Positions 7,829 to 9,583 of a DNA stretch of 30,106 bases are shown here, one piece after another (within the stretch, counting starts at the first letter, position 1; every line of letters begins with the position of its first letter). The notes under the pieces are model-generated. The model saw only the letters and a program-made list of their open reading frames with translations, did not search any database and was not told the origin of the DNA. A program made the position numbers and the translations under genes. This stretch comes from a virus: positions 1-30,106 of IMG/VR virus record IMGVR_UViG_3300047323_000690; one strand, 5' to 3'.

Positions 7829-8365
7829 TCACATTGAATTGTTGATAATCGTATCGAGTCCTTTTTGCGCATCATCATCCGGCTCGGTCGACTTGGTCGC
7901 GGGAAGGGCTTCGGCAGATTTCTCGTAGATTGCGTTGGGGTCGATCGTGAGCTTCCCGTCGGTGTATTTGATCTGATAAGCGACCACCTTCGGCGTACAT
8001 GCGGTGCTCCTGGTTACCAGTGAAAGGGCGGCTGCGGCCTTCAACTTGTCGGCGATGTTCAGGGCGTCGCCGACCGCCCCCGAGGTCTCCGAATTGACGG
8101 CAGTCAACATCCCATTCGACACGGTGAAGCCAAGCTTGGCGGTACCGAGGCCCGGTCGGAATCTGATCGACCGTTTAGGCCCGGGGACCGAAATAACGGT
8201 GGCGCTGATAGCGCAGTCTGCGGCGGTGGTGACGGAAAGCGCGGGGACCGGCTCGTAGTAGGTGAAGGCATTACGCTGTTGCGTGTCGCTGAATTCGATA
8301 CCTGCACAACTGGCCAAGGCGCCCGCACTCGCGCCGATGATCGTAGCCCCGATCGCTCTCCTCAT
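7829..8365 (-). CDS. Small lipoprotein of unknown function (possible lysogeny cargo)
   Basis: 178 residues with a lipoprotein signal: MRRAIGATIIGASAGALASC, basic start, short hydrophobic stretch and a lipobox LASC with Cys20 as the lipidation site. The mature part has further Cys residues (ADCAIS, RSTACTP) and a beta-rich look. The C-terminus is acidic (STEPDDDAQKG). A GGGAGGGG ribosome site lies about 7 nt upstream. I do not recognise the family. It should be exported and anchored in the membrane. It stands alone, flanked by the terminator downstream and the divergent toxin-antitoxin promoter upstream, which is how phage moron genes are usually placed. Superinfection exclusion or lysogenic conversion are guesses; it could equally be a phage Rz1-like or host-derived lipoprotein, though it is long for Rz1. 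Confidence 0.75.
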   Translation of the reverse strand: MRRAIGATIIGASAGALASCAGIEFSDTQQRNAFTYYEPVPALSVTTAADCAISATVISVPGPKRSIRFRPGLGTAKLGFTVSNGMLTAVNSETSGAVGDALNIADKLKAAAALSLVTRSTACTPKVVAYQIKYTDGKLTIDPNAIYEKSAEALPATKSTEPDDDAQKGLDTIINNSM

Positions 8366-8448: not shown

Positions 8449-8456
8449 GTAAGGCA

Positions 8457-8504
8457 TTGTCATTTATAATTGACAATCCGCAATCTGTCGCTTATAAAAG
8501 ACAG
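8457..8504 (+). promoter_or_regulatory. Toxin-antitoxin promoter with two matching palindromic operators
   Basis: Site 1 (8457-8476) has TTGTCA/TGACAA arms and site 2 (8485-8504) has CTGTC/GACAG arms. Both fit TGTC-N2-TTATAA-N2-GACA, with centres 28 bp apart. The promoter is a near-consensus TTGACA at 8470-8475, a 17-bp spacer and TATAAA at 8493-8498. The -35 lies in site 1 and the -10 in site 2, so an antitoxin bound to both would block RNA polymerase. The expected transcription start falls at about 8505, the first base of the toxin ATG. Confidence 0.82.
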
Positions 8505-8801
8505 ATGGAATACGAGATCGAAACCACCGACGTCTTCGACACTTGGCTCGACGAGCAGACCGACGAAGAGGCAGTGGGCGCGATCGTCGCTCGCATCAAC
8601 CGCGTCCGTCACGGCTTGTTTGGGGATGCCGAGCGCGTCGGCGGCAAGGTCACCGAGTTGAAGGTCGACACGGGGCAGGGTTACCGGGTGTATCTCACGA
8701 TCCGGGGCCGCACCGTCGTGATCTTGCTGATGGGCGGCACCAAAAAGACCCAGAAGAGGGATATCAAGGCGGCGAAGAAGATGGTGGAGGCTTTGGGGTG
8801 A
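8505..8801 (+). CDS. RelE/ParE-superfamily toxin (HigB/Gp49-like)
   Basis: 98 residues. FDTWLDEQTDEEAVGAIVARINRVRHGLFGDAERVGGKVTEL, then a YRVYLTIRGRTVVILLMGGTKKTQKRDIKAAKKMV ending, match phage-derived Gp49-like/HigB toxins. These are small ribosome-dependent mRNA interferases, though ParE-type members target gyrase. The order toxin first, antitoxin second is typical of HigBA. The ATG at 8505 has no Shine-Dalgarno sequence and sits at the predicted transcription start, so the mRNA is probably leaderless. The frame is open upstream to 8262, but that would run through the promoter. It should keep the prophage in the cell or act in defence. The family is confident; the cellular target is not visible. 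Confidence 0.87.
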   Translation: MEYEIETTDVFDTWLDEQTDEEAVGAIVARINRVRHGLFGDAERVGGKVTELKVDTGQGYRVYLTIRGRTVVILLMGGTKKTQKRDIKAAKKMVEALG

Positions 8802-8849
8802 CCATCGCCACCGAGTGTAACGAGTATAGGCCATGGAGGGCCAGGTAAC

Positions 8850-9392
8850 ATGACGATCAAGACCAAGGCGTTCGACGCCTCGAAGTACATCAAGAGCCCG
8901 CAGGCTGAGGCGACGCTTTGGGCGGATGCTGTGGCATCTGGTCATGCTGGCGTGATCGCCTCCGCACTTGGTACGATCGCCAAAGCGCGCGGGATGACGC
9001 AGCTGGCGGCCCAAACCGGCCTCAGCCGGCAAGCGCTCTATTCCGGGCTGAGCGATGACGGCAACCCAACGCTAGATACCGTGCTCAAGGTGACAAAGGC
9101 GCTGGGGCTTGGGCTTACCGCGGCAGCGCCAGCGGAGACCCGGGTTATCGGGAGTCCCGACCGTGGCATCGGAATGGTGATAATCGAAGACGGGCTCTCC
9201 GAGCTCGGGAAAGTCGCTGAAAAGCGCTACTACCTGGAAGGCTCAGCAGGTCTCAATGCAGTCATCGCGGGGAAGGCCGCAATGGTGGAGTTTGGGTTCG
9301 AAAAGCGGGTGGCGGGCGGTGAGCTAAAGGCGCCCGCCGGTCGCCGCGCTGGCGCGAAGAAGCAGCCGGCTCATGCCGAGGGAGACGAATAA
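8850..9392 (+). CDS. HigA-type antitoxin with a C-terminal extension
   Basis: 180 residues. Residues 1-100 are the addiction-module antidote type: an N-terminal KAFDASKYIKSPQAEA segment, then the helix-turn-helix KARGMTQLAAQTGLSRQALYSGLSDD and DTVLKVTKALGLGLT. It should neutralise the toxin encoded 48 nt upstream and bind the two palindromes at 8457-8504. Homologues of this type usually stop near residue 100. Here about 80 more residues follow (GIGMVIIEDGLSELGKVAEKRYYLEGSAGLNAVIAGKAAMVEFG) and end in a basic, Ala-rich tail. I do not recognise the extension. A GGAGG lies about 12 nt before the ATG. Its stop overlaps the next start (TAATG). Confidence 0.85.
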   Translation: MTIKTKAFDASKYIKSPQAEATLWADAVASGHAGVIASALGTIAKARGMTQLAAQTGLSRQALYSGLSDDGNPTLDTVLKVTKALGLGLTAAAPAETRVIGSPDRGIGMVIIEDGLSELGKVAEKRYYLEGSAGLNAVIAGKAAMVEFGFEKRVAGGELKAPAGRRAGAKKQPAHAEGDE

Positions 9393-9583
9393 TGCTCCGA
9401 TGGGATGCCGAAATCCATAGATTCGACGGGACTAGTTCCGGCGTGATGTTCCGCGGCGGGTCGGAGCAAGGCGCGCAATCGTATCTGCAGGGCCACCTCG
9501 ATGCGGGAATCGCTAGACGCGTGGACGTCTACGATGATCGCAGACGCCTGGTCCTGCGGATGGTTCCAGCGGCTCTATCCTAA
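9392..9583 (+). CDS. Small protein coupled to the antitoxin gene, unknown function
   Basis: 63 residues whose ATG shares a base with the antitoxin stop, which argues that it is translated and belongs to the same transcript. The sequence (MLRWDAEIHRFDGTSSGVMF, then a GVDVYDD-like acidic stretch RRVDVYDDRRRLVLRM) has no motif I recognise, no signal peptide and no membrane segment. It is followed by 141 bp without an evident gene. It might be a third component of the toxin-antitoxin locus or an unrelated passenger. Low certainty about function, moderate about being a gene. Confidence 0.5.
   Translation: MLRWDAEIHRFDGTSSGVMFRGGSEQGAQSYLQGHLDAGIARRVDVYDDRRRLVLRMVPAALS

Follow-up and report, generated by a model that had tools for sequence, protein, structure and literature searches.

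The toxin-antitoxin operon and its predicted promoter

The DNA analysed here (the window) is a stretch of 30,106 nucleotides from a viral record (IMGVR_UViG_3300047323_000690). It holds a toxin gene, an antitoxin gene 48 nt 3' of it, and a group of promoter and operator-like elements lying directly against the toxin start codon:

8458-8475, no strand: palindrome O1, operator-like, TGTC-AT-TTATAA-TT-GACA (TGTCATTTATAATTGACA), overlapping the -35 hexamer
8470-8475, plus strand: -35 hexamer TTGACA
8486-8503, no strand: palindrome O2, operator-like, TGTC-GC-TTATAA-AA-GACA (TGTCGCTTATAAAAGACA), covering the -10 hexamer to position -2
8493-8498, plus strand: -10 hexamer TATAAA, 6 nt 5' of the toxin ATG
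8505, plus strand: predicted transcription start, the A of the toxin ATG, placed there from promoter geometry and conservation
8505-8801, plus strand: toxin, 98 aa, TIGR02683 (upstrm_HI1419) / PF05973 Gp49, predicted HigB/RelE fold
8835-8840, plus strand: Shine-Dalgarno (SD) sequence GGAGGG of the antitoxin, 9 nt 5' of its ATG, anti-SD duplex energy -9.8 kcal/mol
8850-9392, plus strand: antitoxin, 180 aa, TIGR02684 / PF21716 with an HTH_3 domain, presumed autorepressor

By its profile matches, the operon is a toxin-first type II toxin-antitoxin (TA) pair of a phage, of the TIGR02683/TIGR02684 kind (HigBA-like, Gp49/COG3657-type). The toxin scores 108.4 bits against TIGR02683 (cut-off 62.85) and the antitoxin 98.7 bits against TIGR02684 (cut-off 53.7), and PHROGs labels the two as toxin and transcriptional repressor. 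The AlphaFold model of the toxin (pLDDT 93.6) is of the RelE-superfamily fold; its best PDB match is M. tuberculosis HigB1 (7nbu, TM 0.74), other HigB/RelE toxins are also similar, and the protein would be expected to have RelE-type ribonuclease activity. No solved relative turned up in sequence searches of the PDB. Classical HigBA systems (Proteus Rts1, PF05015; M. tuberculosis HigB1) share the toxin-first order, the RelE-like fold and the HTH antitoxin, but their toxins belong to PF05015, whereas that of the window matches Gp49/TIGR02683 and, at E <= 0.001, PF05973 alone. Known TIGR02683/TIGR02684 pairs (HI1419/HI1420, COG3657-type) resemble ours in toxin-first order and in their carriage by plasmids and phages; the unusual feature of the window is an antitoxin tail of about 85 aa C-terminal of the HTH, which in the related viral contig L008 (antitoxin of 119 aa) is shorter and different. 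A marginal PADLOC match to NsnC was rejected.

The window terminase is akin to rhizobial siphovirus terminases, and L008 shares the terminator-bearing DNA upstream; in the corresponding position it encodes a toxin 63% identical to that of the window. A minus-strand ORF of 178 aa (7829-8365), which in the window separates the terminase terminator from the TA operon, matched no family and may carry a lipoprotein signal (ASCAG); its absence from L008 makes it a likely cargo insertion. At the other end, a 63-aa ORF (9392-9583) without a family match overlaps the antitoxin stop codon (TAATG) and might be a third gene of the operon.

An earlier note had proposed a TTGACA-N17-TATAAA promoter with its start on the ATG at 8505. 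This matches base for base, the 17-bp spacer being 8476-8492 and the start point being placed seven bases past the end of the -10. It is also the best sigma70-like site on both strands of the 30-kb window, scoring 13.3 against 9.2 for the next distinct site under weights that are approximate consensus frequencies; a scan demanding T as the last -10 base misses the TATAAA at 8493-8498. The same note had read the toxin as lacking a ribosome site, which agrees with the absence of an SD motif before it and an anti-SD duplex energy of -0.9 kcal/mol. Its two palindromes of one pattern over the -35 and the -10 are likewise present, as O1 and O2. O1 is centred at -38.5 relative to the toxin start, with symmetry extendable to 8456-8477, and O2 at -10.5, extendable to 8485-8504. 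Nowhere else in the window is TGTC-N2-TTATAA-N2-GACA matched, even if up to three mismatches are tolerated; the expected number of matches is 0.12, and none of the shuffles reached two. The top-scoring sites of the window include no internal antitoxin promoter within the toxin gene. A second TATAAT, absent from the earlier note, lies inside O1 (8465-8470) and may act as a weak promoter, giving a 28-nt leader without an SD.

Promoter position and translation signals among relatives

Relatives were gathered from alphaproteobacterial genomes, viral contigs and genome contigs, and after removal of redundancy 99 upstream regions were kept; start codons were set from the protein alignment, independently of promoters. 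Aligned without gaps on the start codon, these 99 regions bring out T-35 T-34 G-33 and T-12 A-11 A-9, with C at -1 in 54%. TTGACN occurs 51 times within 60 nt upstream, 36 of these at 28-30 nt and 21 at exactly 29, and -10-like hexamers peak 6 nt before the start. The start point predicted from the best promoter lies no more than 2 nt from the toxin start in 66/99 relatives (the leaderless class) and coincides with it in 39; the other 33 do not fit by this measure. The same measure is reached by 7.8% of dinucleotide shuffles, by 1/46 antitoxin starts and by 0/150 control ORFs of comparable promoter score. Against the shuffles, the binomial p is about 1e-48, a value that overstates certainty since it takes related members as independent. 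By source, the fit holds for 30/43 relatives from alphaproteobacterial genomes and for 32/52 from viral contigs, and relatives on Pandoraea and Acinetobacter plasmids have exactly -35-N17-(-10)-N6-ATG. Thus, most relatives, in several bacterial groups, appear from their upstream regions to transcribe the toxin from its start codon without a ribosome-binding site. This position-specific conservation in diverged relatives, together with the controls, supports the leaderless reading of the earlier note, and the toxin transcript of the window very probably starts at its start codon.

It could be argued that translation begins further upstream, the promoter-like motif being coding sequence and the operators a coincidence. 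Upstream of the toxin ATG the frame does stay open in both the window and L008, with in-frame starts at TTG 8457 and ATG 1474, respectively. The N-terminal extensions that would result are, however, non-homologous, and the family profiles start at the ATG. Moreover, 34 of the 66 leaderless-class members, L014 among them, have no alternative in-frame start before the upstream stop, and the leaderless result is therefore independent of the choice of start. We regard an upstream translation start as very improbable.

A transcript with a short leader, made from a promoter further upstream such as the TATAAT at 8465-8470 (start point near 8477) and translated without an SD, for example via S1 or through an unstructured AU-rich leader, also deserves consideration. 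Two weaker composite promoters with scores of 8.7-9.0 would accommodate it, besides the TATAAT lying inside O1. Yet the -35 of that TATAAT is poor, O1 itself is lacking in most relatives, and the promoter conserved throughout the family is fixed with its start point on the start codon, all of which makes a short leader unlikely.

Translation signals divide along the same line. An antitoxin was identified for 65 pairs of the leaderless class. Of these pairs, 4 have an SD motif before the toxin and 56 before the antitoxin, and anti-SD pairing is weaker for the toxin than for the antitoxin in 63. SD motifs stand before the toxin in 11/18 relatives whose best promoter lies at least 9 nt upstream, compared with 4/66 of the leaderless class (p = 1.6e-6, kinship ignored), and nine of these leadered toxins form one clade (87% SH-aLRT). 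Promoter position and SD presence thus complement each other, a pattern that genuine leaderlessness in most members would predict.

Annotation can misplace the start codon of toxins of this kind. On a Pandoraea plasmid (L149, NZ_CP011808.2, 874-893), the annotated toxin start falls within the promoter/operator, 18-19 nt before the conserved ATG; the arrangement TTGGCA-N17-TACAAT-N6-ATG suggests that the leaderless ATG is the true start.

Operator-like palindromes and probable repression

Strong upstream dyads (score of at least 5) occur in 52% of relatives, compared with 10% of shuffles; those of the leaderless class have centres clustered at -10.5 and -17.5. L016 and L049 have dyads at the same two positions as the window (-38.5 and -10.5, a spacing of 28 bp), with other half-sites, and the O1 position is kept in these two and in L008. 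A search of the viral contigs for the exact double-operator pattern gave no match, so the operator sequence is not widely shared while its position is. Conserved position with drifting sequence is what would be expected if the sites co-evolve with their own HTH antitoxin. Between the shared upstream DNA and the toxin, L008 is for the most part poorly conserved relative to the window, yet its O1/-35 and O2/-10 elements are recognisable. L008 and L014, the nearest relatives, both retain TTGACA-N29-ATG despite a 2-bp displacement of O2, and they have a weaker -10, either CATATA at N17 or TATAAA/TATATC at N19.

It is highly likely that the antitoxin represses the promoter through O1 and O2. Its HTH domain and the analogy of known type II TA operons point to it as the repressor, and to a repression that would be strong.

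A possible basis for the toxin to antitoxin ratio

We consider it likely that the operon as a whole combines a leaderless, operator-controlled toxin with an SD-led antitoxin, and propose that the asymmetry between them sets their ratio. One sigma70 promoter would read the operon from the A of the toxin AUG, leaving the toxin cistron with neither leader nor SD. The antitoxin, alone or with the toxin, would most likely bind the palindromes over the -35 and over the -10 and start codon, and so close the promoter. A lapse of repression would yield a single bicistronic mRNA. On it, the 5'-terminal AUG would serve for leaderless initiation of the toxin, and the SD of the antitoxin for a separate and stronger initiation of that protein. 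Antitoxin excess would then be set by the asymmetry of initiation and not by gene order.

How the ratio is set in toxin-first systems has been described as unknown (PMC5906591), and in E. coli additional promoters serve the antitoxin of some systems (PMC7167474). A leaderless toxin and an SD-led antitoxin on one mRNA, an arrangement that appears to extend across the family, would offer a simple and testable answer that makes a second promoter unnecessary. That it does keep the antitoxin in excess seems to us an evenly balanced proposition. Leaderless initiation is not always weak (PMC6212727), and the effect on the ratio may therefore fail.

The leaderless mRNA might instead have nothing to do with the ratio and be a by-product of a compact layout, in which operator, promoter and start codon are crowded into one place for tight repression. 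The two preferred dyad positions (-10.5 and -17.5), which lie over the -10, agree with this, as does the finding that leaderless translation can be efficient, a reporter in S. pneumoniae being insensitive to an added SD (PMC6212727). Such packing should nevertheless be weighed against two observations: SD strength tracks the antitoxin and not gene position, and antitoxin-first TA operons keep a leader and an SD. The promoters of antitoxin-first TA operons likewise carry operators. We would rate a pure by-product as conceivable but rather doubtful, and return to the asymmetry of initiation as the preferred reading.

Other TA families sampled from the same class of genomes served as controls. 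The antitoxin-first ParD genes were leaderless in 0/27 cases and had an SD in 19/27; for RelB, where it is the first gene, the counts were 0/20 and 15/20 (combined, 0/47 and 34/47). The idea that every first gene of a TA operon is leaderless in these bacteria was accordingly rejected. Classical toxin-first HigB (PF05015, alphaproteobacterial) was leaderless in 11/28 (p = 4e-6 against shuffles, kinship ignored), and toxin-first HicA, where it is the first gene, in 2/13, with an SD in 3/13, although its start codons are uncertain. From these counts, a toxin in first place tends to lack both leader and SD, and the antitoxin has an SD in either position. A more general rule, that gene order in type II TA systems dictates translation, with a first toxin leaderless or SD-less and the SD reserved for the antitoxin, can be put forward tentatively, at somewhat under an even chance. 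Under that rule, conditions that select for leaderless translation (stressed, IF-depleted or anti-SD-cleaved ribosomes) would tilt synthesis towards the toxin while transcription stays unchanged.

Leaderless TA operons as such are already known. M. tuberculosis belongs to a phylum rich in leaderless genes, and most of its leaderless TA families (VapBC, MazEF) are usually antitoxin-first. In that species, 32 of the 37 TA pairs with a primary transcription start site are leaderless at the first gene (Cortes 2013, PMC3898074). The first gene is leaderless there, as is predicted for the window, where that gene is the toxin; in contrast to M. tuberculosis, the antitoxin-first operons from the class of genomes that supplied our relatives are not leaderless. 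Regulators and TA systems make up most of the leaderless transcripts of Methylosinus sporium, an alphaproteobacterium (PMC12403871). Two phage repressors, lambda cI and PaaR2 of an E. coli O157:H7 prophage, are also leaderless (PMC8630535); they share with the window a phage-borne leaderless gene and operators beside its own promoter, but their leaderless product is a repressor and not a toxin. In the literature searched, mainly non-subscription, we found no report of leaderless toxin transcripts for the TIGR02683/TIGR02684 family, or of this toxin-first arrangement as a family-wide feature. Outside the family, five classical PF05015 HigB loci of Alphaproteobacteria (L160, L162, L165, L171 and L177) have promoters that would put the transcription start on the toxin ATG.
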